Assembly: GCA_009699665.1 (NCBI GenBank)
Contig: WLNS01000002.1
Location: 1-38,351, forward strand
Reading direction: 5' to 3'
DNA from: Actinomycetota bacterium
GTDB lineage: Bacteria; Actinomycetota; Actinomycetes; Actinomycetales; Microbacteriaceae
DNA: 38,351 bases
Part shown: positions 11,106 to 38,351 of the stretch, in pieces
Position numbering within the stretch: position 1 is the first letter of the stretch
Layout of the letters: each line of letters starts with the position of its first letter
Translations under genes and position numbers: made by a program
Notes under the pieces: model-generated
What the model was told of the DNA's origin: nothing
Databases searched by the model: none
Seen by the model: the letters and a program-made list of their open reading frames with translations, nothing else

Positions 11106-11107
11106 GC

Positions 11108-14374: not shown

Positions 14375-16225
<1,851 letters not shown>

Positions 16226-16227
16226 CC

Positions 16228-16863: not shown

Positions 16864-16878
16864 CGAAAGGAGGCGCTG

Positions 16879-17844
16879 ATGGCTAGTCAGGATTGGTTCG
16901 ACAAAGACTTTTACAAGATTCTCGGCGTCTCGAAAGAGGTGTCGCCCGAAGAGCTCAAGAAGGTCTATCGCAAGCTCGCGCGCAAATATCATCCGGACAG
17001 CAACCCCGGCGACGCCAAAGCTGAGGCGAAATTCAAGGAGGTCACCGAGGCACACTCGATCCTCTCCGATCCAGCTCAGCGTGCCGAATACGATCAGATC
17101 CGCGCCATGGGCTCCGGCGCGCGCTTCACGGCGGGTGGCCAGGGTCGCGGCTTCGAAGATGCCTTCCGTGGCCCCTATGGCGGGCAGGGTGGCGGGTTTC
17201 CGCAGGGCAACTTTGAAGACCTGCTCGGCGGCATGTTTGGCGGCGGCACCTTTGGTCGAGCCTCCGGTGGATACCGCGGCTGGGGTGGTCCGAGCAAGGG
17301 GCAAGACATTGTGTCGACCGTTGTCGTGGACTTCTTTGAGGCACTACACGGCGACACCATGACCCTGCAGCTGCCGTCCGGCAATAGCGTCAAGGTCAAG
17401 ATTCCCGCCGGAGTTGCCGACGGGCAGAAGATTCGCATTCGGGGCAAGGGTCACGGCAGCCCCGATGGCGGCGACCCCGGAGATGTCGTTCTGACGGTGA
17501 CCGTAGGAAAGCATCCGGTGTTCGAACGAGACGGCCTGAATGTTCGACTTCAGGTACCCGTGACGTTTACCGAGGCGGTGTTGGGCGCCACGATTGAGGT
17601 GCCCACCATTGATGGCGACCCCGTCAAGCTCAAAGTTGCTCCCGGCACCCCGAGCGGTCGCATTTTGCGCGTCAAGGGTCGAGGCGTCAAGACGGGCAAG
17701 GGGCAGGGCGACCTGCTTGCCGAGATTATGGTTGCTGTGCCTACGCACCTCGACGCGCAAGCGACGACGGCGCTCGAGGCGTTTGCCGCGGCGGCACCCC
17801 AAGAAAATCCGCGGGCCGAAATTTTGCAACGCGGGCGACGATAG
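16879..17844 (+). CDS. dnaJ: DnaJ-family co-chaperone lacking the zinc-finger domain (CbpA/type II-like)
   Basis: [37 protein letters not shown]-domain with HPD, Gly/Phe-rich linker, then directly the C-terminal beta domains. No CxxCxGxG repeats. Confidence 0.93.
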
Positions 17845-17853
17845 GGGAGAGCC

Positions 17854-18288
17854 GTGGACGAAGACCAGCCGATCTTTACCATTTCGATGGCGGCCGAACT
17901 TGCTGCCATGCACCCCCAAACGCTGCGCCAGTATGACCGTCTCGGCCTCGTTCAACCCACGCGAACGGCGGGGCAGTCGCGCCGATACTCCATGCGCGAC
18001 GTTGTGCAATTGCGCGAGGTCGCTGGGCTCAGCGCCGAGGGGGTGAGCCTCGAGGGCATCCGCCGCGTGTTGGAACTAGAAAATGATGTCGCATCGCTTC
18101 GCGCCCGCGTGCGTCAACTCGAGACGGCTCTGGCCGACTCACTGCTCGCTCAGCCCGGTCGACGGGTCTTTGCAGCCGGTTCGGCGGGCGAGGTGCAGAC
18201 CCTGCGCACGGGCCAGCGCGTGCGACGCGCCACCGAGGTGGTGCGCTGGAATCCCCTGCGCCGCATCGAAGAGGGAGGCTCACGATGA
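17854..18288 (+). CDS. hspR: MerR-family heat-shock repressor HspR
   Basis: [69 protein letters not shown]; location in the dnaK operon with HAIR sites upstream. Confidence 0.95.
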
Positions 18289-21781: not shown

Positions 21782-23449
21782 GTGAAAACCGTGAAGACAA
21801 TCATTATCGGTGGGGTGGCCGGCGGCATGTCGGCAGCGACGCGTCTGCGCCGACTCGACGAGCACGCCGACATTACGGTCTACGAACAGGGCCCCCACGT
21901 GTCGTTTGCGAACTGCGGCCTGCCTTATTTCATTGGCGACGTTATTGCGCAAGAACAGAGCCTGCTCGTGCAAACCCCCGACGCGCTGTTGCGTCGATTT
22001 CGACTCTCGGTCAAGGTCAACACTCGTGTGGTGCAGATCGACCTGGCATCGCGCACCATCACCGCACGTGATGTACTCACCGGAGAAGAACTCAGCGATA
22101 CCTATGACGCGCTCATTCTCTCGCCGGGTGCCCATCCCCGCGTGCTCGACATTCCGGGGGCTGAGCGCGCCTTCTCGCTTCGCGATGTGCCTGACGCGGT
22201 TCGCATTAAAAGCGCGATCGACGAAAAACAAGCCACGACGGCGGTTATTCTCGGCGGCGGATTTATCGGCGTTGAAATGGCAGAGAACCTGCGGCACCGC
22301 GGGCTGCACGTCACGATTGTGCAGTCGGGTCACACAATTTTGCCGCAGTTCGATCCCGAAATGATTGAGCCTTTTCACGCGTCGCTGCGCGCCAATGGCG
22401 TGAATATTATTCTGGGCCGAACCGCGACCGAGATTACCCACGATGAGGTTGTGCTCACCGACGGCAATCGCCTCCCGGCCGACCTCGTGATTTCGTCTAT
22501 CGGGGTGGTGGCTGATGTCGTGCTGGCCGAAGAAGCCGGATTGCGGTTATCTCCCGCGGGCGGCATCTGGGTCGATGAGAATCATCGCACCAGCGACCCC
22601 GCTATTTACGCTGTTGGTGACGCTGCGGCCAAACACAGTGACCTCACTGGCCAGGATCAGATGGTGTGGCTGGCAAACCTCGCCAACCGACATGGTCGTG
22701 CAGTTGCCGATGTCATTGCGGGAAAGCCCAGCCCGGAACACGCCAGTCAGGGAACGGGCATTATTGGAGCCTTTGGAATGGTCGTCGCCGTGACGGGCCT
22801 GACCGAAAAGGCCGCCCTCGGTGCGGGAATACCGATTCTGGTGGCTCACGCGCATCCGAGCTCTCACGCGGGCTACTACCCGGGCGCGGCGACCCTGGCT
22901 CTCAAAATTGTTTTCGCGCCCGACACGGGCCGCATTCTCGGGGCCCAAGCAATGGGAACCGATGGAGCAGATAAGCGCATCGACGTCTTGGCCACCGCAA
23001 TCTATGCCGGGCTCACCGTTGATGACCTGATGAACCTCGAGTTGGCCTACGCCCCCCAGTTTGGATCGGCCAAAGACGCCGTCAACCAGCTCGGCTATGT
23101 CGCAAATAATGTGTGGCATAAGCGAACACCGAGTGTGCAATGGCATGAACTCGACGCGCGCCTTGCCGAAGGCGCGACCCTGATTGACGTGCGAACGTCG
23201 GCTGAAAACGAAGCGGGCGATATTCCGGGCGCAATTCTGATACCGGTGGATGAACTGCGATCGCGCCTCGACGAGATTCCTGACGGCGAGGTCATTGTGC
23301 ACTGTCGGGTGGGCCAGCGCGGACATACCGCCGCCCAGGTGCTGCTGCAGAACGGCAAGAATGCCCATAACCTTGACGGAGGTTGGCTTACCTGGCGCGC
23401 TGGCATGGACGCTCGCGGGCGCGCACAATCGATGCTCACTCAGCAATAA
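21782..23449 (+). CDS. CoA-disulfide reductase / FAD-dependent pyridine nucleotide oxidoreductase with C-terminal rhodanese domain
   Basis: IIIGGVAGGMSAATRLRRLDEHADITVYEQGPHVSFANCGLPYFIG (CoADR active Cys); C-terminal LIDVRTSAENEAGDIPGAILIPVDELRSRLDEIPDGEVIVHCRVGQRGHTAAQVL. Start may be GTG 21782 or GTG 21791. Confidence 0.93.
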   Translation: MKTVKTIIIGGVAGGMSAATRLRRLDEHADITVYEQGPHVSFANCGLPYFIGDVIAQEQSLLVQTPDALLRRFRLSVKVNTRVVQIDLASRTITARDVLTGEELSDTYDALILSPGAHPRVLDIPGAERAFSLRDVPDAVRIKSAIDEKQATTAVILGGGFIGVEMAENLRHRGLHVTIVQSGHTILPQFDPEMIEPFHASLRANGVNIILGRTATEITHDEVVLTDGNRLPADLVISSIGVVADVVLAEEAGLRLSPAGGIWVDENHRTSDPAIYAVGDAAAKHSDLTGQDQMVWLANLANRHGRAVADVIAGKPSPEHASQGTGIIGAFGMVVAVTGLTEKAALGAGIPILVAHAHPSSHAGYYPGAATLALKIVFAPDTGRILGAQAMGTDGADKRIDVLATAIYAGLTVDDLMNLELAYAPQFGSAKDAVNQLGYVANNVWHKRTPSVQWHELDARLAEGATLIDVRTSAENEAGDIPGAILIPVDELRSRLDEIPDGEVIVHCRVGQRGHTAAQVLLQNGKNAHNLDGGWLTWRAGMDARGRAQSMLTQQ

Positions 23450-23628: not shown

Positions 23629-25137
23629 CTACTTCGGAAGTGTCAGGATTCCATCCAGGCGTCGAGCAACGCTTGAATCTGCGTCGCGGAGTTCTTCGGG
23701 AAGAATGAAATCAGGAGCGTCTTGCCAAGCGAGAGGCCGAAGGAATCGGCGCATTGCTGTGATGCCCACAGACGTGTGAATTGTGTTTGTAGACGGCCAC
23801 GGTCCACCGTGGTGTTGCGCCCAACTAACCCGCACTCCCGTGGGGAAGCCATTGAAGACCAGTCGCCCGGCCCGCGGTTTCACTACATTGACGAGCTCAC
23901 GGACGAAGTCTGCGTCGTCGGTCTGATAATGAATCGACGCTGTCAATGACGAGGGAATGTTCTCAAGTGCCGCAAACAAGTCGCTATTTCCCTCGTAACG
24001 CACCGCCATTATTAGTGGCCCGAATGCCTCCTCGGCGTGACCGGGCGTGAGGTCAGAGGCCGCCACGCTAAGAATGGTTGGTGAGACAAAGAATCCCTCG
24101 GCGCCTGGCGCTTGGCCCTCAGCGACGACAGAGACGCCTGATTCGGTTGACATGCGCAGTCTGGCACCCGCGTAGGAGTCATGCACCCGTTCGTTCAAGA
24201 GGACGGCGGCGTCTGCCTCGACGAACTTCGCAGCAAGATCAGTCAAAAATGCATCGCCCAACTCGCCTGTGGGAATGAATGCGAACCCGGGCTTCGTACA
24301 CAGCTGTCCGGAAGAAGCTATGACGGACGTGGCAAGCCCCGTAGCAATCTCGTCGGATCGGGCTAAGAGCGCGGCTGAGGTTATAACGAGCGGATTCATA
24401 CTGGAGAGCTCGCCATAAAACGGGATGGGCTCATCCCGCATGTCGATGATGGCTTGAAGGCGCTTACCCGTGTCTAGTGAACCAGTAAAACCAACGGCGC
24501 TAATGGCGGGTTCCGCAACCAGGGCAGCACCGGCTTTTTGCCCATAAACGATGCCTATTGTTCCGTCAGGTGCGCCAAACTCGCGGCAGGCCCGTTCCAT
24601 AGTTGCGAAAACTGCTGCGCATGTCAGTGGGTGCGCACTATGGGCCTTGGCGACGACGGCATTTCCGGCCGCGAGAGCAGAGGCCGTGTCTCCACCCGGA
24701 ACGCTGAATGCAAAGGGGAAGTTACTCGAGCCAAACACCGCGACCGCGCCCAGAGGAACAAGGAGCCGTCGCACGTCTGGACCGGGCCCGAGGGGAGTTG
24801 TTCCGGCGTGATCGATGGCAACCTCAAGAAAGCTTCCTTCACGGACGGCTTCTGAAAACAACTGAAATTGGAAGACGGTCCTCGTCAACTCACCGTTCAG
24901 CCGGACATCTGTCAAACCCGTCTCGGCCATTGCCGTGGGGATGAGGACTTCACGGTCTGCTTCGAGTGCTGCGGCAATGGCGTCGAGTAGGTCGGCGCGA
25001 CGAAGGCGGCCAATTGCGGCCAGCTCCTTTGCCGCAGTCGCGGCACGGTGTGAAATAGCGGCGACTTCCGCGTCACTCGTGACCGCCAAATCTGTCGCCT
25101 CAGTTGCTCCGGTTCTCGGGTTTGTTGTCGTAATCAC
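23629..25137 (-). CDS. Aldehyde dehydrogenase, alpha-ketoglutaric semialdehyde (2,5-dioxovalerate) dehydrogenase-like
   Basis: LVPLGAVAVFGSSNFPFAFSVPGGDTASALAAGNAVVAKAHSAHPLT; FTGSLDTGKRL; GELSSMNPLVI; ASSGQLCTKPGFAFI (catalytic Cys). Confidence 0.87.
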   Translation of the reverse strand: MITTTNPRTGATEATDLAVTSDAEVAAISHRAATAAKELAAIGRLRRADLLDAIAAALEADREVLIPTAMAETGLTDVRLNGELTRTVFQFQLFSEAVREGSFLEVAIDHAGTTPLGPGPDVRRLLVPLGAVAVFGSSNFPFAFSVPGGDTASALAAGNAVVAKAHSAHPLTCAAVFATMERACREFGAPDGTIGIVYGQKAGAALVAEPAISAVGFTGSLDTGKRLQAIIDMRDEPIPFYGELSSMNPLVITSAALLARSDEIATGLATSVIASSGQLCTKPGFAFIPTGELGDAFLTDLAAKFVEADAAVLLNERVHDSYAGARLRMSTESGVSVVAEGQAPGAEGFFVSPTILSVAASDLTPGHAEEAFGPLIMAVRYEGNSDLFAALENIPSSLTASIHYQTDDADFVRELVNVVKPRAGRLVFNGFPTGVRVSWAQHHGGPWPSTNTIHTSVGITAMRRFLRPLAWQDAPDFILPEELRDADSSVARRLDGILTLPK

Positions 25138-25190: not shown

Positions 25191-26255
25191 TTAGGCACTT
25201 TCGCGCGAAATAATGTCGAAGCCTAAATCGCGAACGACTCGGCCCGGAGTCTTTCGACGTGAGGCCATTGCCTTCAACAGAATCTCTGCGGCCGCCCTGC
25301 CAACGTCCTTGTTTGGTGTAAGTACGGTCGTGAGTGAGGGGGAGAGGTGTTTGGCAAGGTCAAAGTCGCCGAGACCGGTCACCCCAATCCGGCCGGGCAC
25401 GTCGATGCCACGTGACACAAATTCGAGGATGGCGCCCTCAGCAAACACGTCACTAGAACACACAAGAAGGTCAGTCTCAGGATGGCGCATCAAGACCTCA
25501 CGAGCCAGATAGCGGCCTGCTTCAATACTGATGCCGAGGTCCTCAGTGTTTACGAACCGGAGAGGCTCGCCCGGCAACTTGGTGGTCACGGCTTCTTGAA
25601 ATCCACGGAGACGTTCGTTAGCGCGCTCATCCACATCACGAAGCCAACCGGCGAAGGTTGGATGTTTGAATCCTTTGGTGATGCGCGATTCTGTAAGTAC
25701 TCGAATAGCCTGACTGTTTGAGAATCCGACGAGGGAGTCGATGGGTTTTCCCGACAGAGTGAGCGTCTCAATAATGGGAATGTTGGCCTTTGACAGCATT
25801 TGTCTGGCGAGTCGCGTGTGGCTCGTTCCCGTCAGCACCATTCCGTCTGGACGGCGACCGAGGAAGGCGCGAATCATCTCTTCTTCGGGCTCCGGATCGT
25901 ATCCGGTCGTACCGACGAACAGGTGGTATCCGTTGGGGGACAGCGTCTCGTCAAGCCCACTGAGGACGTCGGTAAAGATAGTGCCTACGAGGTTGGGGAC
26001 GAGCGCGCCTACCGTCATGCTGCGATTAGAAGCGAGATTACGGGCGGTCATGTTGGGAACGTAACCAGTGGACTGAACAGCTTTTTGAACGGTGACGAGC
26101 GTTTGCTCGCTCACCTGTTCAGGTGTCCGAAGTGCGCGAGAGACGGTTTGCGCAGACACACCCGCGAGTTCGGCAACTTCGGCAAGCGTTACCGACTGGG
26201 TCGACCGGCGGCTCGTCTTGCCAGCACTTTTTGGGCGAACAACCGGGTCACTCAT
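25191..26255 (-). CDS. LacI-family transcriptional regulator
   Basis: VTLAEVAELAGVSAQTVSRALRTPEQVSEQTLVTVQKAVQSTGYVPNMTARNLAS HTH. ATG at 26255 forms an ATGA overlap with the upstream FAH gene; the ORF track opening at 26309 is an extension. Confidence 0.94.
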   Translation of the reverse strand: MSDPVVRPKSAGKTSRRSTQSVTLAEVAELAGVSAQTVSRALRTPEQVSEQTLVTVQKAVQSTGYVPNMTARNLASNRSMTVGALVPNLVGTIFTDVLSGLDETLSPNGYHLFVGTTGYDPEPEEEMIRAFLGRRPDGMVLTGTSHTRLARQMLSKANIPIIETLTLSGKPIDSLVGFSNSQAIRVLTESRITKGFKHPTFAGWLRDVDERANERLRGFQEAVTTKLPGEPLRFVNTEDLGISIEAGRYLAREVLMRHPETDLLVCSSDVFAEGAILEFVSRGIDVPGRIGVTGLGDFDLAKHLSPSLTTVLTPNKDVGRAAAEILLKAMASRRKTPGRVVRDLGFDIISRESA

Positions 26256-27436
26256 AAGAGTCCCCGTTGGGATAAATTTGTCATCAATTCGCGCAGACCA
26301 AACACCCACGGATCACAGTCTTCACTGTAACGAACTTCGTTTATCAGGCTACCGAGAAGGGGGCTCGAGATTTGTACGACGTCGCCTACCTTGTGGGTGA
26401 ATCCGGCACCCTCGGTATCTCGGTCCTTCGTGGGAGCAAAGAGCGTGCCCAGGTAGAGAACCGCGCCGTCAGGATACTGATGATGGCGGCCAATGAGCTG
26501 GCTGACGATGTCTTCAGGATCGCGGCTGATTTTGGACATGTCTGAGGCATCCTCAAGCACGAAGCCGTCGGGCCCGCTAATGGTCAGCCCCACCTTCATT
26601 GTCCGCACGTCATCGAGTGAAAAAGTTTCGTCGAATAGCCGAATCCAGGGCCCCAGCGATCCGGAAGCGTTGTTGTCCTTGGCCTTTGAGAGCAAAAGTG
26701 CGCTGCGGCCCTCGAGGTCGCGAAGGTTGACGTCGTTACCGAGGGTCGCACCAACGATTCTTCCGGTCGACGTTATCGCGAGGACAACCTCTGGCTCGGG
26801 ATTGTTCCAAGTGGAGCCGGAGTAAATCCCGACGGGCGAGCCGAAACCAACTGTGGCCAACGTTGGAGCCTTAGTGAAGGTCTCGGCGTCGGGACCGATA
26901 CCGACCTCCAGGTATTGCGACCAGAGACCCTCTTCAATAAGGAGCTTTTTGACGTTTGCTGCCTCTGCCGAGCCAGGAACAACTGTGGCGAAGTCGTTTC
27001 CAATTTTGGAGACCATGGACTCGCGAATGCGGAGCGCGTCGGCCGCGTTGCCCAAAGATCGTTCCTCGATGACACGCTCAATCATCGACACCGCAAAGGT
27101 GACCCCCGCGGCTTTGACGACCTGCAGGTCTATGGGGCTCAAGAAGTGGAAATTTAAGGCAGAACGAGATTCTGGGGCACTTGCAGCCAAAATGTCCTCA
27201 ACTGAACCCACGCACACGCCCGTTGCATCGTGAGCCGCGCGCGCGGGATCGTCGCTTTCCATGAGGTCCCTGACGGTCGCGAAAGATCCGCTGATGTCAT
27301 AAACGCCGTCTTCGCGTAAAACCACAGGAGAGGGTCCTTCTGCGGTCGGGTTCCAAATGCGCGAGATGAGGGTTCCGCGAACGCCATCTTCAGGAAGGAT
27401 GCGTGTTGAATCTCCATACGACTTTGAAGTGTTCAT
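26252..27436 (-). CDS. FAH-family protein, 2-keto-3-deoxy-sugar-acid dehydratase (XylX)-like
   Basis: LQVVKAAGVTFAVSMIERVIEERSLGNAADALRIRESM; LATVGFGSPVGIYSGSTWNNPEPEVVLAITSTGRIVGATLGNDVNLRDLEGRSALLLSKAKDNNASGSLGPWI. Start MNTSKSYGD at 27436. Confidence 0.82.
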   Translation of the reverse strand: MNTSKSYGDSTRILPEDGVRGTLISRIWNPTAEGPSPVVLREDGVYDISGSFATVRDLMESDDPARAAHDATGVCVGSVEDILAASAPESRSALNFHFLSPIDLQVVKAAGVTFAVSMIERVIEERSLGNAADALRIRESMVSKIGNDFATVVPGSAEAANVKKLLIEEGLWSQYLEVGIGPDAETFTKAPTLATVGFGSPVGIYSGSTWNNPEPEVVLAITSTGRIVGATLGNDVNLRDLEGRSALLLSKAKDNNASGSLGPWIRLFDETFSLDDVRTMKVGLTISGPDGFVLEDASDMSKISRDPEDIVSQLIGRHHQYPDGAVLYLGTLFAPTKDRDTEGAGFTHKVGDVVQISSPLLGSLINEVRYSEDCDPWVFGLRELMTNLSQRGLL

Positions 27437-27509: not shown

Positions 27510-28295
27510 CTAGCGTCTTCGGAACACGCCCTGCCGTTTCTCGGTAAAAGCTCGACGACCCTCTCGGGCGTCGTCTGTGGCGAAAGCAACCGTCTGAAGG
27601 TCTCGCTCGTACTTCATGGACTCCGAGAACGATGATTCACGGGCAGTGCGGACATTAATCTTGGCGTGCTCGGCGGCGATGGGAGGCCGCTCCGCGATCG
27701 TCTGGGCCAAAGCCATTGCTTCAGTCATGAGAGATGCGGCGGGAACTACACGCGTGACAAGGTTCCAGCGAAGTGCGGTCGCGGAGTCCACGGCGTCGCC
27801 AGTGAGAAGCATGTACGACGCATTACTCGATCCCGCTGCTGCAGTGAGGCCATAGCTCACACCGCCTCCGCCAATCCAGCCCAGTTTGATTTCTGACGCG
27901 GCAAATGAAGCATTTTCGGCAGCGATGCGGATGTCGCAGAGCAGGGCAGTTTCGAGACCGCCACCATATGCGTAGCCGTTTATTGCACCAATCAGAGGTT
28001 TGCTCAGCTCTCGAAGGGCGTCGCAGTAGTCGACTCGATTGCGAAAATCCCAGGGCGTGTCGTAGGAATCCAGAGCGCTGATATCAGAGCCACAGCAGAA
28101 CGCGCGCTCGCCGGCACCCGTGAGGACCACTGCGCGAATCTCCGGATCGACATTGAGCGCACGTATGAGCACTTCGAGGGCGTGCGACATGGCGGGAGTC
28201 ACGGAGTTGAGTTTCTCGGGCCTGTTGAGGGTGATGACCGCCACGGCGCCCTCGCGGGTGCATGTGACGTTCTCGCTACCCGTAGAAGTGTCCAT
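27510..28295 (-). CDS. Enoyl-CoA hydratase/isomerase (crotonase) family
   Basis: AVAVITLNRPEKLNSVTPAMSHALEVLIRAL; VVLTGAGERAFCCGSDISAL; KPLIGAINGYAYGGGLETALLCDIRIAAENASFAASEIKLGWIGGGG. Confidence 0.92.
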   Translation of the reverse strand: MDTSTGSENVTCTREGAVAVITLNRPEKLNSVTPAMSHALEVLIRALNVDPEIRAVVLTGAGERAFCCGSDISALDSYDTPWDFRNRVDYCDALRELSKPLIGAINGYAYGGGLETALLCDIRIAAENASFAASEIKLGWIGGGGVSYGLTAAAGSSNASYMLLTGDAVDSATALRWNLVTRVVPAASLMTEAMALAQTIAERPPIAAEHAKINVRTARESSFSESMKYERDLQTVAFATDDAREGRRAFTEKRQGVFRRR

Positions 28296-28296
28296 G

Positions 28297-29445
28297 TCAG
28301 ATCTTTCCGCCGGCGTGAGCTAGACCCTGGCTAAATGAGACGCGGATATCCTTCAGAATGTCGGTGGTCGCTTCACCGCTCACGAGTCCTTCGCGAATTC
28401 GCGCAGAGGCATACTCTTGATAGACGGCATATCCAGCGAAGCGCGGACGAACCTGGGCTCCCTGGATCGTGGTCAGTGTGTTGGCATAGAACCCGGCGGA
28501 TTGTCGGTTGAGATTCGGGTCACGCCATGCGCTGGCGAGAGCGGGCTGCCCATCGTGTGAGGGAATGAAGTTCGTTTGGGTATCGGCCGAGACGAGCCAG
28601 GCAACGTAAGCAACGAGTTCGGGACTTATCGAACGACGGTTAGTCACGGCCAACCCGGCACCGCCGATTGTTGAGCCACGAATACTCGATATTCCGCTTG
28701 GAGCGTCGCTAAATTGCACAGCCCGCGGCGTCATTCGGGCGAACTGTGAATATCCATAAATGAGGGGGACACAGGCAATGTCATTACGAGCGATCATTGC
28801 AGCGAGCAGGGCTATCGGATTCATTTTTAGCGTGCGAGGAGCCTGCCTTGTCACCAATTCGCGCATGATCTCGAGCACGGCTATAGCGATTGAGCTGTGC
28901 GGGAATTCACGCCACAAGCCATCATCTACCGCGGCGTCAAAACTGGCACACAGTGAGAGGAAAGTGAGAAATGCATGGGGGCCAGCAACGCTGAGGCACA
29001 CGGTCTGCTCGCGTCCAAGGCGCAGGATGTCCTCCCACGTTTTCGGAACAGAATCAATCAAGTCCGCCCGTGAAGCCATCACCTGGGTGGCCGCATCGAC
29101 GGGAAGGGCCCAAAGTTTTCCTTCCATTTGGTAACTACGAAAACTTGGCCCTACGAATGAATCTGAGAGCGCCTGAACACGTTCGACCCCGATGACATCT
29201 TCGATAGGTCGGAATCCACCGGATGCACACATGTCACCGACGTGCGGATGGTCCATGATGACAAGATCAAACCGCTCGGCGAGATCTTCGATGGGATGAG
29301 CCTCGAAGTGCTCGAGGGAATGTGCGCTCCAGGAAATGTCGAGCCCGAGGCCTTCCCGCGCTTCGGGGATCGATGCGAACAGCGCATTCTTACCTCGCGG
29401 ATTGTCCCAGGTTATTCCCGTGTAATGTCCCGTCATGTCAATCAC
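28297..29445 (-). CDS. Solute-binding-protein-fold (family 1-like) protein without signal peptide; function unknown
   Basis: MIDMTGHYTGITWDNPRGKNALFASIPEAREGLGLDISWSAHSLEHFEAHPIEDLAERFDLVIMDHPHVGD..LWALPVDAATQVMASRADLIDSVPKTWEDIL resembles type-1 carbohydrate SBPs. No hydrophobic N-terminus or lipobox. ATGA overlap with the CoA-transferase. Confidence 0.75.
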   Translation of the reverse strand: MIDMTGHYTGITWDNPRGKNALFASIPEAREGLGLDISWSAHSLEHFEAHPIEDLAERFDLVIMDHPHVGDMCASGGFRPIEDVIGVERVQALSDSFVGPSFRSYQMEGKLWALPVDAATQVMASRADLIDSVPKTWEDILRLGREQTVCLSVAGPHAFLTFLSLCASFDAAVDDGLWREFPHSSIAIAVLEIMRELVTRQAPRTLKMNPIALLAAMIARNDIACVPLIYGYSQFARMTPRAVQFSDAPSGISSIRGSTIGGAGLAVTNRRSISPELVAYVAWLVSADTQTNFIPSHDGQPALASAWRDPNLNRQSAGFYANTLTTIQGAQVRPRFAGYAVYQEYASARIREGLVSGEATTDILKDIRVSFSQGLAHAGGKI

Positions 29446-30653
29446 ACGTGCTCTTCGACGATAACGCCGCTCGTCATGAGTTCGTTGATTTCGGCGCCTG
29501 GGATTCCGAGTTCCGCAAGAATCTCGGTGGTGTGTTGACCAACAACCGGAGCGCCCATCCGCACGGCGGGATTGCCAGCCGAAAAAGTGTAAGGAAAGCC
29601 CGGTGTCTTGATGTGGCCTTCCGTGGGGTGCTCATATTCGACGAATGAGCCATTGTGCTTTATTTGTGGGTCATCAACAAGGTCCTCGTAGGTGTACACA
29701 GGCGCCGACCAAATTCCCACGTCGGCGAACGCGGCAAGCCACTCTGCACTTGTTTTGTTGACCAGTCTTGCTGCAGTCTTTGCGAACAGTTCGTCGCGGT
29801 GAGTCCACCCATGGACTTCATCGACCATCTCGACAAATGAAGGTTCTCCGATTGTCCGGCCGAGGTCGGGTAAATGCGCAAAAGCGAGCGCGATGTAGCC
29901 ATCGCTTGTCTCGAAAGTTCCATAAGGCGCTCGAATGTAGACGTGCGCGTTCGGCTCTTTGCCACGCTGCTGTTTGACGCCGCCGACAGTGAATACAGAG
30001 AGCTCCTGCATCTGCTGGCTAGTGATCACATCGAGCATGTTAACTTTTACGCACTGTCCCTCGCCGGTGCGCTCACGGTGGAAAAGCGCGACGAGCGCCC
30101 CCTCGAAGGCGGTGTTGGCAGTTATGGAATCAACCAAGAACTGACCAGCGGCGCGAGGCGGCTCACCCTCGCGCCCTGACGAAAACATCGCGCCACTGAG
30201 GGCCTGGAGCAGCAGGTCTTGACCGGGCCAGTTGACGTACGGCCCGTCGTCACCGTAGCCCGAGATCGAAACGTAAATTATCCGTGGGTTGATTGCTCGC
30301 ACGGTGTCGTAGTCAAGTCCCAGCCGGGCTGCTACTCCCGGACGGTAGTTCTGAAGGAAAATATCGGACGACTCAATGAGTCGGCGCATGACATCTGCTG
30401 CGGCGTCGGATTTCAGGTCGATGGCCAGGGAACGCTTATTTCTATTGAGTGAGAGGAAAGACACGTTAATTCGGTTGCCCGGGACACCACCGGCTGCCGC
30501 GTGACGTTGCCACTCACCGCTCGTAGGCTCGACTTTAATGACGTCGGCACCAAGATCGCCTAGGCGCTGGGCGGCAAACGGGCCGGCCATAGCCACAGAG
30601 CAGTCGATGACGCGAATACCGTCCAACATTCGAGGTGATTCTTGTGTACTCAC
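29442..30653 (-). CDS. CaiB/BaiF-family CoA-transferase
   Basis: MLDGIRVIDCSVAMAGPFAAQRLGDLGADVIKVEPTSGEWQRHAA; FLSLNRNKRSLAIDLKSDAAADVMRRLIESSDIFLQNYRPGVAARLGLDYDTVRAINPRIIYVSISGYGDDGPYVNWPGQDLLLQALSG. GTG at 30653 overlaps the upstream stop (GTGA). Confidence 0.93.
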   Translation of the reverse strand: MSTQESPRMLDGIRVIDCSVAMAGPFAAQRLGDLGADVIKVEPTSGEWQRHAAAGGVPGNRINVSFLSLNRNKRSLAIDLKSDAAADVMRRLIESSDIFLQNYRPGVAARLGLDYDTVRAINPRIIYVSISGYGDDGPYVNWPGQDLLLQALSGAMFSSGREGEPPRAAGQFLVDSITANTAFEGALVALFHRERTGEGQCVKVNMLDVITSQQMQELSVFTVGGVKQQRGKEPNAHVYIRAPYGTFETSDGYIALAFAHLPDLGRTIGEPSFVEMVDEVHGWTHRDELFAKTAARLVNKTSAEWLAAFADVGIWSAPVYTYEDLVDDPQIKHNGSFVEYEHPTEGHIKTPGFPYTFSAGNPAVRMGAPVVGQHTTEILAELGIPGAEINELMTSGVIVEEHV

Positions 30654-31765
30654 GGCTGACCACCTATTGCGCGAATGGCGGCTGTCGCAGCGGTGACTTC
30701 GCCTGCCGAGGTGAGGATTCGGATAGTTGCGTCGTAGTTTCGTGAGTCGCCGTTTTCGAGCCACGTGAGGCTGTCGTCTTTGCGGGCAGCGGCCTCACCG
30801 GTTACGTGATTACTTGACGGTTCCAAGCCCAGGGCATACTGGCCCTCGCGCAAGTTCTGCCATTCGAAGAAGCAGGGCATTGTTTCCGCATTCCACGTCA
30901 CTTCGACACCGGCTACTCCGTCGGGTCGGGCAAGCACGACACGGTGACGATTGTCGGCATCGGGCGTCAGTTCGTGTTCCCACACCTGCTCAATGAAGTG
31001 GCGTTTGGGAGCGATGAGCTCTTTGTAGGACGCCCCCTGCGTGGCAACGGAGTCGGATGCCCAGAGGTGTTGCGGCATAGCGGCGATTACCTGCGATCCC
31101 TCGTCCACAAACGGATAACCAAAATTCAGGTGGTAAAGGAACATGTGCGGGGTTCGCTCGAAACCGAGGTTGGTTACGACATCCTTCAGGCGTATTTCGA
31201 AACCTGCGATGTCCATCTCAATGGTCCTGGTCAGCTTCAGGTGCTCGCCGAAGGCGGTGGCCTGGATCACTTCACCCTTGACGCGAAGAACACCCCCATC
31301 GGTATCCCAGTCCTCGGTCACCTCGAGTAGACGAGCTGGAATCGCGGTGAGGCGTCCATGTAATCCGTGAGTTACCGTCTTCTTGGGAGGGTAGTGGTAG
31401 TGGCTCGCGTCGTACTCACCGCCGAATAAGGCGTGATCAAGCCCGCCCGTAACGAGCAGTCCGTCGATGGCCCTCAGCCATGACAGACCACCTTCGGCTT
31501 CGGATTCGTGAAGACCGGGGTGGCGATAGCCATTACCGCTGCGCCAGCCAAAGGGCACTCCCGCGACTCGCGCTCCACCGAGGTCGAATGCTCGGTCAAC
31601 GAGCACTTCGAGCTCAAGTCCGACGGCATTCCGCATGGTGAGCATGCGCACACCGCGTTCTACTCCGTTGTCGAGAACTACCTCGCGGATTCCGGCAAAC
31701 GCCGACAGGTCTCCCGTTCGCTTCTTCAGGTCTTCGAATGAGAGTGAATTTCCAAAAAGGTTCAT
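30650..31765 (-). CDS. DUF4432-type aldose 1-epimerase-like protein
   Basis: MNLFGNSLSFEDLKKRTGDLSAFAGIREVVLDNGVERGVRMLTMRNAVGLELEVLVDRAFDLGGARVAGVPFGWRS; LGLEPSSNHVTG. The ORF extends to 31786. Confidence 0.8.
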   Translation of the reverse strand: MNLFGNSLSFEDLKKRTGDLSAFAGIREVVLDNGVERGVRMLTMRNAVGLELEVLVDRAFDLGGARVAGVPFGWRSGNGYRHPGLHESEAEGGLSWLRAIDGLLVTGGLDHALFGGEYDASHYHYPPKKTVTHGLHGRLTAIPARLLEVTEDWDTDGGVLRVKGEVIQATAFGEHLKLTRTIEMDIAGFEIRLKDVVTNLGFERTPHMFLYHLNFGYPFVDEGSQVIAAMPQHLWASDSVATQGASYKELIAPKRHFIEQVWEHELTPDADNRHRVVLARPDGVAGVEVTWNAETMPCFFEWQNLREGQYALGLEPSSNHVTGEAAARKDDSLTWLENGDSRNYDATIRILTSAGEVTAATAAIRAIGGQP

Positions 31766-31770
31766 TTCGG

Positions 31771-32538
31771 CTACACCATGACCCATCCGCCGTCGACCTC
31801 GATGTTTTGGCCAGTGACGAACGACGAGTCGGCACCGAGCAAGAACGACACGACGGCGGCCAGTTCCTCGCCGTTGCCCCGGCGCTTGAGGGATTGTCGT
31901 TCAAGAACAAACTTGTTGTATTCCTCGGGGTTGGGGTGAATCTCGTCTGCCCTTGTGGGGAATGCCCCTGGTGAGATCGTATTCACGCGCACTCCCTTGG
32001 GGCCAAGCTCACGCGCTAGCGCTCGGCTCATCGCTACGGCAGCACCCTTGGTTGTCACGTAGCTAGAGAGAAGTTCCCATCCGCCGTGCCACGTAATCGA
32101 ACCGATCTGAACTATGGACCCACCTTCACGAGTAACCATCCGCTTGGCGGCGGCTTGAGCCCCCATGAAGTAGGCAGTCTGATTGACGCGAACGACCTCT
32201 TCGAACTGCGTTCGGGAGGTCTCGAGGAATGGAATGGTGGGGTACATTGCCGCGTTATTGACGAATCCCCACAGGGGGCCAAGTTGACTCTCACACGACT
32301 CGACGGCCGCGTCAATTGTTGAGGGATCGTTGAGATCGCACTCGAGAAGTGCGGCGCGGCCACCGGCATCTTTTATAAGTTGTGTCGTGAGCTCTAAATC
32401 TTTGCTCATTCGGCCGAGCACGCCCACGGCAAACCCATCCTCAGCCAATCGCAGGGCCGTGGCTCGGCCGAGCGCTCCAGCGGCACCGGTAACGATGGCT
32501 GAATATGAGGTGGCGTCAAAAGTGTTTGCCGTGGACAT
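31771..32538 (-). CDS. Short-chain dehydrogenase/reductase
   Basis: SAIVTGAAGALGRATALRLAEDGFAVGVLGR (Rossmann); YVTTKGAAVAMSRALARELGPKGVRVNTISPGAFPT; FVTGQNIEVDGGWVMV. Confidence 0.92.
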   Translation of the reverse strand: MSTANTFDATSYSAIVTGAAGALGRATALRLAEDGFAVGVLGRMSKDLELTTQLIKDAGGRAALLECDLNDPSTIDAAVESCESQLGPLWGFVNNAAMYPTIPFLETSRTQFEEVVRVNQTAYFMGAQAAAKRMVTREGGSIVQIGSITWHGGWELLSSYVTTKGAAVAMSRALARELGPKGVRVNTISPGAFPTRADEIHPNPEEYNKFVLERQSLKRRGNGEELAAVVSFLLGADSSFVTGQNIEVDGGWVMV

Positions 32539-32543
32539 AGTGC

Positions 32544-33461
32544 TTAGACTCCGTTTCGCTTGAGCACCTCGTCGACGAAGCGCTTTGCACGCGGAACATC
32601 GGACTCGTCGAGATGTTCGATGATGAGCGGCACATTGGGGCTGACTTCACTCAGGCGGCGAACGTAAAGGTCGTAATCAAGCTCACCAAGACCCGCGGCC
32701 GGCAGCTCGATTTCGCCCACACCACGGAACGTATGTGACTCGAGCTCGAGGTCGGCGCCGAGGTCGGCGTGTTTTTCTGACTTATCATCGCCAGACCGTT
32801 TGACGTCCTTTGCGTGTGCAATGCGCACGCGGTCCGACACGTTGTCAAACACGTCGTTGAGAATCTGCTGCATTGCGTCGATGTTGTGGATCTCAAAGTA
32901 GTTCGTCGGGTCCATCAAGAGTTCGATGCCCGGCTTCCCCTTGAAGTCGTTGAATACACGAATCGTCTCTTCAAGCGAGCCAATCACGTTGTTAACGTAT
33001 GTCTCCAACAGAAACGTCGCGCCGTGGTCGTAGGCAGTTTGACGCAGGTCATCTAGTTGAGCGAGGCACGTTTCGTAACCTTCCTGAGTCTTGTTCTTAT
33101 CATCGTGCACCCAGTCGCTGTCGGCGTTGAATGTTCCCGATTCAGAAATCACGTAGGGAGTGCCAAACGACCGAGCGTTACGGATCATTTCTTTGAGGTA
33201 ATCAACCCGGCGCTTGCGCTCGTCTAGGTCTGGATGCGTAATGTTCGTATAGCCCGAAATAGCACAGATGGGCAGGTCATGGTCACGAAAGGTGTCGCGC
33301 ACTTTCTTGGCCTTGGCCTCGGTTATTTGACCGGCACTCAGGTCTACGTCCTTGAAATGCAAGTCAAGTTGCACAGTGTTAAATCCGTGGTCGCGGATTG
33401 TCTTTGCGGTCGTCTCGAGCTCGTAAGGAAAGTATCCCGAGAAGATTCCTACTTGAATCAT
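32544..33461 (-). CDS. Sugar phosphate isomerase/epimerase (xylose isomerase-like TIM barrel)
   Basis: MIQVGIFSGYFPYELETTAKTIRDHGFNTVQLDLHFKDVDLS; GIELLMDPTNYFEIHNIDAMQQILNDVFDNVSDRVRIAHAKDVK; VPLIIEHLDESDVPRAKRFVDEVL. Confidence 0.88.
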   Translation of the reverse strand: MIQVGIFSGYFPYELETTAKTIRDHGFNTVQLDLHFKDVDLSAGQITEAKAKKVRDTFRDHDLPICAISGYTNITHPDLDERKRRVDYLKEMIRNARSFGTPYVISESGTFNADSDWVHDDKNKTQEGYETCLAQLDDLRQTAYDHGATFLLETYVNNVIGSLEETIRVFNDFKGKPGIELLMDPTNYFEIHNIDAMQQILNDVFDNVSDRVRIAHAKDVKRSGDDKSEKHADLGADLELESHTFRGVGEIELPAAGLGELDYDLYVRRLSEVSPNVPLIIEHLDESDVPRAKRFVDEVLKRNGV

Positions 33462-33525: not shown

Positions 33526-34629
33526 TCAGGCAATCGGTACCTCAGAAAGTTTTACGGGGCGGTTTTCGTCGATCGACCGGTAGCCGGCTTCGACGAGGGC
33601 AATTGTTCGCACGTTGTCGTCGACAGTGAGAACGGGCGTCGTGTTGGTCGCAACGGCGTACTGGAGTTGTTCCATGACGCCGATAAACGCGTGCGGGAAC
33701 CAGTGCGTGTTCCAGGTTGGGCGAACCCACTTCCCCTCTGTCGTGTCTTGCGACGCGTACTCGAGAGTAGACGGCTTTCCATTGGGCCAGCCAATAGTTC
33801 CTTGAGCCACGCCTCTCGTTCCCTCGACCCGCCACCGGATGTAAAACTCCGAATCGAAGTCTTCGTCGCGCGGCCCGGCCCATACGTCCTCCATGCTTAC
33901 GGCGAGCAGTCCGGTGGGGAAGCGAAGGGTGGATACGACGATTCCGTCTTGGTGTGCGAATTGCGTGCGCGGGTCGGTTCTGGCGGCCGTATAAATTTCA
34001 TCGGGCTCGCCAAACAAATGACGAAGGGCATCTAAGTGATGCACGCTCATGTTCGAGAGGGTAAGCCGATCGTAATCTTCTAGGAATGATTGCCAGTGCG
34101 GAATTGCGCGCATGTCTATGCTGGCGAGAATGGGTTCGCCCAATTCCCCTCGATCGAGGATTTGCTTGAGAACGCGAATCGACTGGTCGTATCTCATGTT
34201 CTGGTTGACCGAGAGTAATTTGCCTGCGGCGTGGGCCTCGTCACGGAGTGCGACGGCATCGTCGAGAGTCAAAGCCAGAGGCTTTTGCGCGAGAATCCCC
34301 TTAATGTGAGGCTTCGTCAGCGCATAGCGAATAAGTTCGGGCTGTAGGTCCGGGGGATAAGCGATGTCGAGAATCTCAATCTGTGGGTCGTCGATGAGAT
34401 CTTTTGGCGTCTCATGAACCGTGAGAATCTTGTATCGCTCGGCGACCTCCGCGGCATGTGCCGGCGTTCGAGAGGCGATGGCCGCCACGGGAAAACCCGC
34501 CTCCTGATAGGCGGCGAGCTGAACCTCAGAAACAATCATGCCCGCACCGATGACCCCGATGGGTACGGTGTTGACACGAATCTCCACATCGGGCAGAAAT
34601 CCCTGACTTTGGCTTGTCATGTTCATCAT
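33526..34629 (-). CDS. Gfo/Idh/MocA-family oxidoreductase
   Basis: VPIGVIGAGMIVSEVQLAAYQEAGFPVAAIASRTPAHAAEVAERYKI; GILAQKPLALTLDDAVALRDEAHAAGKLLSVNQNMRYDQSIRVLKQIL (EKP-like motif and catalytic region). Confidence 0.92.
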   Translation of the reverse strand: MMNMTSQSQGFLPDVEIRVNTVPIGVIGAGMIVSEVQLAAYQEAGFPVAAIASRTPAHAAEVAERYKILTVHETPKDLIDDPQIEILDIAYPPDLQPELIRYALTKPHIKGILAQKPLALTLDDAVALRDEAHAAGKLLSVNQNMRYDQSIRVLKQILDRGELGEPILASIDMRAIPHWQSFLEDYDRLTLSNMSVHHLDALRHLFGEPDEIYTAARTDPRTQFAHQDGIVVSTLRFPTGLLAVSMEDVWAGPRDEDFDSEFYIRWRVEGTRGVAQGTIGWPNGKPSTLEYASQDTTEGKWVRPTWNTHWFPHAFIGVMEQLQYAVATNTTPVLTVDDNVRTIALVEAGYRSIDENRPVKLSEVPIA

Positions 34630-34806: not shown

Positions 34807-35868
34807 ATGAATACAAATGCAAAGCGGGCGAAGCGCGGACTCCGTATCGTCGCCCTTGCTGCTGTTGTCGCGGTTGGCGCGACTCTGGCAGCATGTTCAT
34901 CCGGCGGAGGGAACGCTGGCGAGAAGTTCGTTATCGGCTTCGAACAGCCACTGGGTGGTCAAGCATGGCGCGAAACTGGGCTCTCTGCACTTCAAGCCCT
35001 TGCCGCTCGTCCTGAGTACAAGGACATCGTCGAACTGAAGATCGTTCGAACGTCTGACAACGATGCTGCACAGCAGAACTCGGCTATGCAGGATCTTGTC
35101 GCTGCTGGAGTCGATGCCATTCTGTTTGACCCAGCATCTGGAACGGGTGCTGACGCGGCCGTTGCACAGGCAAAGGCTGCAAACATCCCGGTGATCGCTG
35201 CGGGTGGACCCTACGAGAACGACTACGTGTACATCGTTTCGACTGACTGGGCTAACGCGGGAACGGTTGGAGCCAATTGGTTGCTCGATAACCTTGGCGA
35301 CAACAAGAACGTTGTTGTTTTGGAAGGTATTGCGGGTGTACCGCTGAATGACCTGTCAATGCCGGGCGTCGAGAAGGTGCTCACCGAAGGTGGCGCCACA
35401 ATTGTTGCCAATGGCACCAACGCATGGAACGAGGCCGATGCTCAGAAGAACATGGCGGCAATCCTGCAGTCGAACCCAGGTGTTGGAGGCGTCTACTCGT
35501 TCCTCACCGGAGGTCAGGGCATCCCCCAAGCCTTCGTTGACGCGGGTCTTCCCTTCGTCCCCGTCGTAGGTGGTTCCGGTTACAACGGCGAGGCATGCAC
35601 GCTCGCCAAGTACGCCGACCAGGGCCTCAAGGGAGACATGGTGTTCGGCCAGCCGGCCATCTATGCTAAGGCTCTCGAGCAGACAGTAAAGCTCCTGCAG
35701 GGGGGAACGATTGAGAAAGCTCAATACTTCCCGCCACTCGAGATCACGGTTGCCAACGCTGCCGACTTCTGTCTCAAGGATCAGCCAGACAACTTCCAGC
35801 TCGGTTACGACTTTCCCGGTCTTAACATCACGCTGGAAGAGTTCCTGAAATTCCACAAGGCGTCGTAG
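34807..35868 (+). CDS. Sugar ABC transporter substrate-binding lipoprotein (ribose/periplasmic-binding type)
   Basis: MNTNAKRAKRGLRIVALAAVVAVGATLAACSSGG (lipobox); FVIGFEQPLGGQAWRETGLSAL; DLVAAGVDAILFDPASGTGADAAVAQAKAANIPVIAAGGP. ATG 34807 with RBS gaaggaga; the ORF track opening at 34414 is spurious extension. Confidence 0.93.
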   Translation: MNTNAKRAKRGLRIVALAAVVAVGATLAACSSGGGNAGEKFVIGFEQPLGGQAWRETGLSALQALAARPEYKDIVELKIVRTSDNDAAQQNSAMQDLVAAGVDAILFDPASGTGADAAVAQAKAANIPVIAAGGPYENDYVYIVSTDWANAGTVGANWLLDNLGDNKNVVVLEGIAGVPLNDLSMPGVEKVLTEGGATIVANGTNAWNEADAQKNMAAILQSNPGVGGVYSFLTGGQGIPQAFVDAGLPFVPVVGGSGYNGEACTLAKYADQGLKGDMVFGQPAIYAKALEQTVKLLQGGTIEKAQYFPPLEITVANAADFCLKDQPDNFQLGYDFPGLNITLEEFLKFHKAS

Positions 35869-35912
35869 TTTCGAATCGCCATTGAAATAAAGATAAGAAG
35901 GAAGTGAACCAC

Positions 35913-37478
35913 GTGGCAGAACAACGTCACACGGGTGCTGCGGAGCAATCCGCAGCACCCGGGCTCGCGACCTCAGCAGGCCCTCTGCTCAAGGTCTCGA
36001 ATCTCATAAAGCATTTCGGTCCCGTGCGCGCGGTTGACGGAGTTAGCTTTGAGATTTTACCCGGCGAAGTTCACGCCCTTGTTGGCGAAAATGGAGCGGG
36101 CAAGTCGACCGTAGCTAAAATTCTCGCCGGAGCTTATTCGGCCACGTCGGGGTCCATTCTCTTTGACGGAGAACTATTCACCCCCTCTAGTATTCGGCAG
36201 GCTCGTGACCTGGGGGTTGTGTGTGCTTTCCAGGAACTTGCTCTCGTTCCGGACTGGACCGTTGCCGAAAACCTCGTTTTGCCTTCGCGGGGCAATGGAG
36301 GCTTCGTCACTCAGCGCAGCCTCAACGCGCGCGCCGCCCAGGTTATGGGCGAATTAGAACTTGGTCATATCGACCCTCAGGCAATCCTGGGATCTCTGGC
36401 CTTGGCGGACCGCCAGCTCATCGAAATTGCGCGGGCCATATCTGCCAAACCGCGCCTGTTGATTCTTGACGAGGCTTCGTCAGCTCTCAACCCTCTCGGA
36501 GTTCAGTGGCTCTTTGGCCGTGTTCGCGACCTTCAGGTCCAGGGTGTCGGCGTGATTTATGTGTCTCATCGTCTCAACGAGATTCACGAGATCGCTGACC
36601 GCGGCAGTGTGTTGCGCGACGGCGTCTCGGTAAGCGACTTCGCTCGAGGCAGTTGGACTGACAATGAGCTCGTCTCTCAGATGGCTGGGCGGCCAGCGGG
36701 CAAACAGTTCCCCAAACCCGCCATAGTCCCTAAAGGCACGCCGGAAATCATCGGGATAGAAGGCCTGAGTTCTGCAGGCCTCAACAACATCGACTTCCGG
36801 CTACAAGCTGGAGAAATCCTTGGACTTGGTGGGCTTGCGGGGCACGGCCAGACTGAACTGCTGAAGGCCTTGTTTGGCGATGTTCAGGCTCGAGCCTCGT
36901 CGTGGAGAATTAATGGCAAGAATGTGAGCCGGTTGACGCCCCTTTCGGCAGTGCGCAATGGCCTGGGCTATGTTCCCGAGGACCGAAAAACGGAAGGCCT
37001 CGCACTTGAAATGGGGGTGGGCGAGAACCTACTCACCCCGTGGTTCCGAGCTTTCTCCTGGGGTGGAAGTATTCGTCTCGCGCAGGAGCGTGGCTGGATC
37101 AAAAACGTGCTGAGCGCACTGACCGTCAAAGCTCGCGGTCCGCTCCAAAAGGCTGGGGCACTTTCGGGTGGAAACCAACAGAAGTTGGTCTTTGGGCGTT
37201 GGCTGGAGCGCAATCGAAAAGCATTGATTCTTCACGATCCCACGCGGGGGATTGATGTTCGCTCCAAGCAGGAACTCTACGCGGCCATGGTTAAACTCGC
37301 CGAGTCTGGAGTGGGAATCGTTTGGTTTTCGACCGAGGTCGAAGAACTGCAAAACATGTGTCACCGGGTGATCGTCCTGCACAAGGGAACGATTGTTTCT
37401 GAATTGGTTGGCAAGCAGATCACGGTCGAAGCCATTGTGGGTGCCGCCGTTGGCAAGCGAGGTGAGGTTTCAGCATGA
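35913..37478 (+). CDS. Sugar ABC transporter ATP-binding protein (RbsA/MglA type, two NBDs)
   Basis: HALVGENGAGKSTVAKILAGAYSATSGSILFDGE; LILDEASSALNPLGVQWLF; second half GLGGLAGHGQTELLKALFG, LSGGNQQKLVFGRWLERNRKALILHDPTRGIDV. RBS aaggaag favours GTG at 35913 over 35904. Confidence 0.92.
   Translation: MAEQRHTGAAEQSAAPGLATSAGPLLKVSNLIKHFGPVRAVDGVSFEILPGEVHALVGENGAGKSTVAKILAGAYSATSGSILFDGELFTPSSIRQARDLGVVCAFQELALVPDWTVAENLVLPSRGNGGFVTQRSLNARAAQVMGELELGHIDPQAILGSLALADRQLIEIARAISAKPRLLILDEASSALNPLGVQWLFGRVRDLQVQGVGVIYVSHRLNEIHEIADRGSVLRDGVSVSDFARGSWTDNELVSQMAGRPAGKQFPKPAIVPKGTPEIIGIEGLSSAGLNNIDFRLQAGEILGLGGLAGHGQTELLKALFGDVQARASSWRINGKNVSRLTPLSAVRNGLGYVPEDRKTEGLALEMGVGENLLTPWFRAFSWGGSIRLAQERGWIKNVLSALTVKARGPLQKAGALSGGNQQKLVFGRWLERNRKALILHDPTRGIDVRSKQELYAAMVKLAESGVGIVWFSTEVEELQNMCHRVIVLHKGTIVSELVGKQITVEAIVGAAVGKRGEVSA
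35932..35961 (+). other. 13-bp perfect stem-loop with GCAA tetraloop at the 5' end of the ABC ATPase gene
   Basis: CGGGTGCTGCGGA-GCAA-TCCGCAGCACCCG: 13 uninterrupted Watson-Crick pairs closed by a GNRA loop. Confidence 0.9.
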
Positions 37479-38351
37479 CGACGACGACCGTGTTGGCGCC
37501 GGAAGGCCGGCCTCGCCGAGGGTTCTTTGGTATTCAACGTATGCGGCGGGAGGGTGCGACACCAGCCGTCTTGGCGTTCGTCGTATTCTTGGTGGTTTAC
37601 CTCATCATCAACCCGGGCTTGCTCACACCCCTGCAGTTCATGAACACGGCCAACGTCGTTGTTCCCGTCGCCATCGCGACAATTGCGCAGTTGATCATCG
37701 TGACGACCGGCGGCATAGACATCAGCATTGGCGCAGTAATGAGTTTGGCGAATGTCATCTTCGCAACGCAGTTTGCACTCGTGCCCTGGCCGGTTGCTGT
37801 CCTCATGGGTTTGGGCACCGGCTTGGCCTGTGGTCTTATCAACGGACTCCTTGTGGCATACCTGCGTCTCCCCGCAATTGCGGTCACGCTTGCCACAGCT
37901 TTCATTTTCGGCGCGTTAGCTCGAGAGATTCTCGACCGACCAGGTGGGGCGCTCGACGACAGCGTCTACGCGACCCTTGCCGGGAACCTTGCTCCATTCA
38001 TTCCGTTTGCCTACATCTGGCTGGGGTTGGTGGCAGTGGTGACATGGTTTCTCCTCCAGAAGACGCGCATCGGGAGAACCGTTTACGGGGTGGGTTCGAG
38101 CGAGCACGCGGTTTCTTCTGCCGGCATGCACTCGAGGCTCTCGGTTCTTTTCGCTTTTGGCCTGTCGGGCCTGCTAGTCGGGTTTGCCGCAATCTTTTTG
38201 GCAGGAGCGACTATGACCGGTGACCCCCGAAGCGGAGATCCATATGTGCTCACAACCATTGCAGCCGTGGCCCTATCCGGCGCGAGCTTTGCTGGTGGTC
38301 GTGGTTCGATTTTTGGCGCAATTCTTGCGGCAATCACTTTGACCCTCGTGA
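37475..38351 (+). CDS. Sugar ABC transporter permease (RbsC type), truncated by window end
   Basis: ATGA overlap with the ATPase gene; translation MTTTTVLAPEGRPRRGFFGIQRMRREGATPAVLAFVVFLVVYLIINPGLLTPLQFMNTANVVVPVAIATIAQLIIVTTGGIDISIGAVMSLANV..GPLSGASFAGGRGSIFGA-like end. Absent from the ORF track because no stop lies in the window. Confidence 0.92.
   Translation, partial: MTTTTVLAPEGRPRRGFFGIQRMRREGATPAVLAFVVFLVVYLIINPGLLTPLQFMNTANVVVPVAIATIAQLIIVTTGGIDISIGAVMSLANVIFATQFALVPWPVAVLMGLGTGLACGLINGLLVAYLRLPAIAVTLATAFIFGALAREILDRPGGALDDSVYATLAGNLAPFIPFAYIWLGLVAVVTWFLLQKTRIGRTVYGVGSSEHAVSSAGMHSRLSVLFAFGLSGLLVGFAAIFLAGATMTGDPRSGDPYVLTTIAAVALSGASFAGGRGSIFGAILAAITLTLV

Follow-up and report, generated by a model that had tools for sequence, protein, structure and literature searches.

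Why should a CoA-transferase and an enoyl-CoA hydratase be encoded in the middle of a bacterial sugar operon? The question is raised by contig WLNS01000002.1 of an Actinomycetota bacterium (Microbacteriaceae), a 38,351-nt stretch, here called the window, that represents one entire contig of a 1.45-Mb draft genome (83% complete). A string of minus-strand sugar genes encodes, in order, a Gfo/Idh oxidoreductase, a TIM-barrel protein, an SDR oxidoreductase, a DUF4432 protein, CaiB, SBPc, a crotonase, an FAH-family protein, a LacI-type regulator and an aldehyde dehydrogenase (ALDH); a ribose-type ABC importer is transcribed divergently from it. Pfam matches confirm that CaiB, SBPc and the crotonase lie side by side and closely packed at positions 27510-30653 (-), as described in an earlier note on this DNA, and also bear out the sugar-gene neighbours named there. 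That note had proposed that CaiB activates a sugar acid with CoA and that the crotonase replaces the usual aldonate dehydratase; it gave the SBP-fold protein no role. The best-supported reading, with chances judged to be about even, is that this cassette serves as a CoA-dependent aldonate dehydratase in a Weimberg-like ('Route II', oxidative non-phosphorylative) pathway.

CaiB (29442..30653, -) is assigned to the class III (CaiB/BaiF) CoA-transferases by its CoA_transf_3 domain (Pfam E 1e-103), its position in the CaiB tree and a catalytic Asp that is kept in 69/69 relatives. The crotonase-family enoyl-CoA hydratase (27510..28295, -; Pfam ECH_1 E 2.7e-59) belongs to a family in which both catalytic Glu (rat ECH 144 and 164) are kept in all 48 members. 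Judged from sequence, the catalytic residues of both enzymes are intact; the predicted role of CaiB is to transfer CoA from a donor thioester to the sugar acid in exchange, and the crotonase is a predicted aldonyl-CoA dehydratase. A carnitine-type function was rejected, as the scores against the NCBIfam models for L-carnitine CoA-transferase (138.1 vs a cut-off of 413 bits) and crotonobetainyl-CoA hydratase (155.7 vs 500) are far too low. Between the two enzymes lies SBPc (28297..29445, -), a solute-binding-protein-like protein lacking a signal peptide and translationally coupled to CaiB. The CaiB/SBPc overlap at 29445-29442 reads GTGA, not ATGA as first reported, and the single nucleotide (28296) between SBPc and the crotonase is present as described. 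CaiB in turn overlaps the DUF4432 gene by GTGA (30653-30650). A second CaiB-family gene is found elsewhere in the same genome (L001, G000:C102:11124-12227).

The CaiB-SBPc-crotonase set is a conserved cassette in Actinomycetota and alpha- and betaproteobacteria. The gene order (CoA transferase, 'solute-binding protein', enoyl-CoA hydratase) and the accompanying sugar genes are kept in annotated loci of Pseudosulfitobacter, Sinorhizobium, Rhizobium, Pararhizobium, Variovorax and Streptomyces; annotation of the loci in high-GC relatives was tblastn-based. The arrangement is not due to chance, because it recurs from Sinorhizobium to Streptomyces and in many genomes of the window's family. SBPc is present in 47 of the 293 genomes sampled from that family and in 145 plasmid records (tblastn), mainly from Sinorhizobium; it was not found in any other genome of the same genus, and phage records gave no match. 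A contig scan with a single SBPc sequence returned only two weak loci.

Several kinds of cluster can be distinguished. Class A clusters resemble the window, with identities of 61-68% for CaiB, 55-59% for the crotonase and only about 40% for SBPc. In class A2 the CaiB-SBPc-crotonase-FAH-ALDH core is kept, and the upstream genes encode a different Gfo/Idh protein and a metallo-beta-lactamase-fold protein, joined in most cases by a member of the enolase superfamily. Class B combines a more distant CaiB (~38%) and SBPc with a MaoC dehydratase, beside an AKR, a fuconolactonase-like amidohydrolase and a FucD-like gene. Two minimal operons, L091 (Streptomyces ITFR-6) and L066 (from the window's family), consist of an MFS transporter, CaiB, SBPc, MaoC, FAH, ALDH and LacI; the transporter of L091 is a metabolite/H+ symporter of the shikimate-transporter type. 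Three plasmid loci depart from these patterns. In Martelella mediterranea (L130, 9001-19197) a CaiB module of the crotonase type, lacking an SBPc of its own, adjoins a divergent MaoC-SBPc-CaiB module, bringing both hydratase types together. In Croceibacterium (L129, 3958-19176) CaiB and crotonase, without SBPc, lie beside GH78, GH88, DUF2264 and a P-loop 'kinase', neighbours that hint at polysaccharide as the source of the sugar. In Halobellus limi (L131, 7593-18932) a haloarchaeal sugar cluster combines a CoA transferase with both hydratase types, crotonase and MaoC, in the vicinity of SMP-30, Gfo/Idh, two FAH genes and ALDH, and is possibly a distant version of the cassette without SBPc.

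The genes that follow the cassette point to the pathway. The FAH-family protein (26252..27436, start inferred, -) matches PDB 9kkt (E 4.9e-123) and KdaD 2q18, a 2-keto-3-deoxy-D-arabinonate dehydratase (E 2.7e-17), over the FAH domain, and by this homology is predicted to be the 2-keto-3-deoxy-D-pentonate (D-KDP) dehydratase of Route II. The ALDH (23629..25137, -; Aldedh E 8.8e-46) is a predicted alpha-ketoglutaric semialdehyde (KGSA) dehydrogenase; its best NCBIfam match is 2,5-dioxovalerate dehydrogenase, at only 106 vs a cut-off of 750 bits, and its nearest PDB entries are the ALDH 1eyy and an NADP+ ALDH. Route II pentose catabolism ends with an FAH-type D-KDP dehydratase and KGSA dehydrogenase (PMC6336799, PMC7374468). 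Among 71 FAH loci, 41 contain a CoA-transferase; every one of these also has a hydratase (crotonase or MaoC), and 31 have an ALDH. The FAH active-site positions are invariant throughout (71/71), with the same residues in the 41 cassette relatives and the 30 non-cassette relatives, and the latter include FAH genes located beside IlvD/Edd or altronate-type dehydratases. The FAH and KGSA-dehydrogenase-like ALDH that typically recur with the cassette tie it to the closing pair of reactions in the Weimberg route, and the genome-neighbourhood comparison suggested in the earlier note comes out in favor of a conserved cassette co-occurring with the genes predicted for these steps.

This association also bears on the view that the cassette acts on an unrelated acyl-CoA, derived for example from a downstream carboxylate or from an acyl group carried by the sugar, and is merely co-regulated with the sugar pathway. 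CaiB and crotonase families do mostly use such acids, and in class B the cassette stands alongside a seemingly complete fuconate route (AKR, lactonase-like amidohydrolase, FucD-like). However, distant taxa share the link of the cassette to FAH and ALDH, both from one defined route, the annotated loci showed no thiolase, acyl-CoA dehydrogenase or ligase beside it, and the minimal operons offer no other source of the FAH substrate; an unrelated acyl-CoA is considered unlikely.

Conventional aldonate dehydratases were sought around the cassette. The visible locus contains no IlvD/EDD or enolase-family dehydratase, in agreement with the earlier note, and likewise no IlvD/EDD, UxaA or UxuA-type genes were found in or close to the operons of its relatives. 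Near FAH, a gene of the IlvD/EDD or altronate type is present in 0/41 loci with a CoA-transferase vs 7/30 without one (Fisher p=0.0015, loci treated as unrelated, with no phylogenetic correction). The non-cassette FAH clusters concerned carry IlvD/Edd (L087, L126) or altronate-type genes (L086, L090, L118, L124, L127), enzymes that likely perform the preceding step there. Whole-genome profile searches of 23-24 cassette genomes gave no IlvD/EDD match near the cassette, about half of the genomes holding a single gene of this type; GD_AH was found in 1/24 and UxuA in 0/24.

An enolase-superfamily gene accompanies 21 of the 41 FAH-linked cassettes. When aligned to talarate/galactarate dehydratase, nearly all of 22 companion sequences were missing the Asp-His dyad of sugar-acid dehydratases, which is kept in FucD-like and other references; the companion is unlikely to be a standard dehydratase because this dyad is lost. 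Its presence, with KxK motif and metal ligands, does favor CoA-dependent epimerisation, in which CaiB makes the aldonyl-CoA, the hydratase reversibly dehydrates and rehydrates it so as to invert C2 or C3, and the TIM barrel (class A) or the enolase-superfamily protein (class A2) then dehydrates the right epimer. The CoA-transferase family also includes acyl-CoA racemases, as seen in the PDB matches. The minimal operons L066 and L091, however, lack both the TIM barrel and the enolase-superfamily gene, and epimerisation is regarded as distinctly unlikely.

The same two operons bear on the nature of the substrate. Class A holds four upstream sugar enzymes and no recognisable lactonase, as might be expected if the cassette dehydrated or hydrated an already modified (keto- or unsaturated) sugar acid delivered by the Gfo/Idh, TIM and SDR proteins, not a plain aldonate. 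The minimal operons appear to take up the acid directly, without such enzymes, and a modified substrate is quite improbable.

Several observations weigh against the cassette as a simple dehydratase. The enolase-superfamily companion in half of the FAH-linked loci keeps the metal ligands and the KxK motif, and even without the dyad it might still be a dehydratase. The TIM barrel, too, may be a dehydratase, of the IolE type. The class B cassette (MaoC) adjoins a FucD-like gene with an intact dyad, and therefore the cassette there need not be the missing dehydratase. Several Sinorhizobium and Rhizobium operons have the cassette without FAH in the operon. When the unbiased order-level sample is taken alone and FucD-like genes are counted too, the comparison becomes 1/16 vs 7/24 (p=0.11, not significant). 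The proposal of the earlier note thus stands in part: the link to FAH and ALDH, the lack of IlvD/EDD, UxaA or UxuA-type genes, the minimal operons, the hydratase swap and the intact residues argue for CoA-activated dehydration, and the enolase-superfamily protein in half of the loci and the FucD-like gene of class B argue against a simple replacement of the aldonate dehydratase.

The hydratase swap is seen in the CaiB tree, in which L066 and L091, both with MaoC, branch with full support from within the crotonase users. Crotonase and MaoC have unrelated folds and the same chemistry, and their exchange argues that the cassette needs hydration or dehydration of a CoA thioester. Crotonases act on 3S-hydroxyacyl-CoA and MaoC hydratases on the 3R form. 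In Fischer projections of aldonates, a C3 hydroxyl pointing left is S, as in D-xylonate and D-lyxonate, and one pointing right is R, as in D-arabinonate and L-fuconate. MaoC would replace the crotonase where the C3 hydroxyl is R, and the FucD-like context of class B would fit a MaoC/3R pairing.

SBPc belongs to a solute-binding fold family (SBP_bac_8, E 7.2e-9; 36.3 bits vs a cut-off of 27), and its profile matches sugar-binding SBPs in PDB. This fold and the sugar importers close by would suit an ordinary transporter component whose position next to CaiB is incidental. However, no hydrophobic stretch or signal peptide is found near the N-terminus in the window protein or in any of 66 SBPc relatives (0/66), so that SBPc is very likely cytoplasmic, as the earlier note had claimed; separate importers come with SBPs of their own, and the SBPc-CaiB coupling recurs in clusters with differing importer types. 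The transporter role was rejected for want of a signal peptide, and an incidental adjacency is very improbable indeed. SBPc is missing between CaiB and crotonase in three loci (L094, L129 and the class A module of L130) and is therefore not essential to the chemistry. It is probably an accessory protein; a sugar-acid-binding partner of CaiB is our guess. A single-sequence AlphaFold model of SBPc was unusable (mean pLDDT 37). In locus L068 (8803-11414) a relative of SBPc adjoins an ALDH, and no CoA-transferase was found in the 18-kb stretch analysed; in L100 (6180-7297) SBPc is split over two frames by a frameshift or sequencing error.

The proposed CoA-dependent aldonate dehydration would proceed in five steps. 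The upstream oxidoreductases and isomerases would supply a pentonate-type sugar acid. CaiB would place CoA on its carboxylate, with succinyl-CoA or, as in carnitine metabolism, the product thioester as donor; in the latter case CoA would cycle at no net cost. SBPc, as an accessory, probably binds this acid on behalf of CaiB or the hydratase. The glutamates of the crotonase would take the C2 proton acidified by the thioester and expel the C3 hydroxyl, the resulting enol giving 2-keto-3-deoxy-aldonyl-CoA. CaiB would then hand the CoA to the next aldonate, freeing the 2-keto-3-deoxy acid, which the FAH protein, going by its homologs, would dehydrate to KGSA and the ALDH would convert to 2-oxoglutarate. 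A wider proposal, judged less likely than not, is a general CoA-thioester route of sugar-acid dehydration in soil, plant-associated and aquatic bacteria (possibly also haloarchaea), with CaiB aided by a cytoplasmic SBP-fold carrier, crotonase used for 3S acids (such as D-xylonate or D-lyxonate) and MaoC for 3R acids (such as D-arabinonate or L-fuconate). The known sugar-acid dehydratases are iron-sulfur (IlvD/EDD), enolase-superfamily or altronate/mannonate-type enzymes, and a CoA-thioester route, if true, would add a different chemistry. It would also make sense of an operon that is common but whose genes are currently labelled one by one as belonging to fatty-acid metabolism or transport. 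A family of cytoplasmic SBP-fold proteins would gain its first function, and the conversion of pentoses to 2-oxoglutarate would gain new parts.

The remaining genes of the minus-strand string are a LacI/GntR-type regulator (25191..26255, start inferred; Pfam LacI and Peripla_BP, best NCBIfam GntR/IdnR models below cut-off), the DUF4432 aldose-1-epimerase-like protein (30650..31786; PF14486 E 9.7e-86, PDB 3ty1), the SDR oxidoreductase (31771..32538; adh_short_C2 E 1.7e-54), the xylose-isomerase-like TIM-barrel protein (32544..33461; AP_endonuc_2 E 2.9e-24) and the Gfo/Idh/MocA oxidoreductase (33526..34629; Pfam E 1.6e-14, weak PDB matches to sugar/inositol dehydrogenases). The DUF4432 literature held nothing of relevance. 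The ribose-type ABC importer (34834..38350, +; Peripla_BP_4, ABC_tran and an open permease frame) comprises an SBP ending at 35868 (start approximate), an ATPase (35904-37478) and a permease running from 37475 to the contig end. Elsewhere on the plus strand the window encodes a carotenoid-type run (8641-12689; synthase-like, FAD desaturase-like, lycopene cyclase domain and prenyltransferase-like membrane protein), a chaperone operon (14375-20432; DnaK, GrpE-like, DnaJ-like, MerR/HspR-like regulator and ClpB) and a CoA-disulfide-reductase-like pyridine-nucleotide-disulfide oxidoreductase fused to a rhodanese domain (21782-23449), opposite which lie two spurious antisense ORFs.

The operon shares with known Weimberg/Route II systems (PMC6336799, PMC9795676, PMC7374468) a predicted FAH-type D-KDP dehydratase, a KGSA dehydrogenase-like ALDH, sugar oxidoreductases, an importer and a regulator. 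It differs from them in that the window operon is without an IlvD/EDD, enolase-dyad, GD_AH, UxuA or altronate-type aldonate dehydratase and has CaiB, SBPc and the crotonase in that slot. SBPc resembles the extracellular SBPs of CUT1-type importers in its SBP_bac_8 fold and its profile matches to sugar-binding SBPs, but has no signal peptide and is coupled to a CoA-transferase instead of permeases. In Haloarcula (PMC5592240) a family III CoA-transferase and a MaoC-like hydratase likewise act together on an unsaturated/hydroxy acid, as succinyl-CoA:mesaconate CoA-transferase and mesaconyl-CoA hydratase; the acid and pathway are other ones, and the window CaiB scores 199 vs the mesaconate CoA-transferase cut-off of 700. 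No earlier description of an aldonyl-CoA or a sugar-acid CoA-transferase was found in the open literature, most subscription journals being outside coverage. As in the carnitine CaiB/CaiD system, a family III CoA-transferase lies beside a crotonase with both glutamates, and CoA could cycle between product and substrate; unlike that system, the cassette lies in a sugar operon and scores well under the NCBIfam cut-offs. What is new in the proposed route is the placing of CaiB/CaiD logic in a Weimberg setting.

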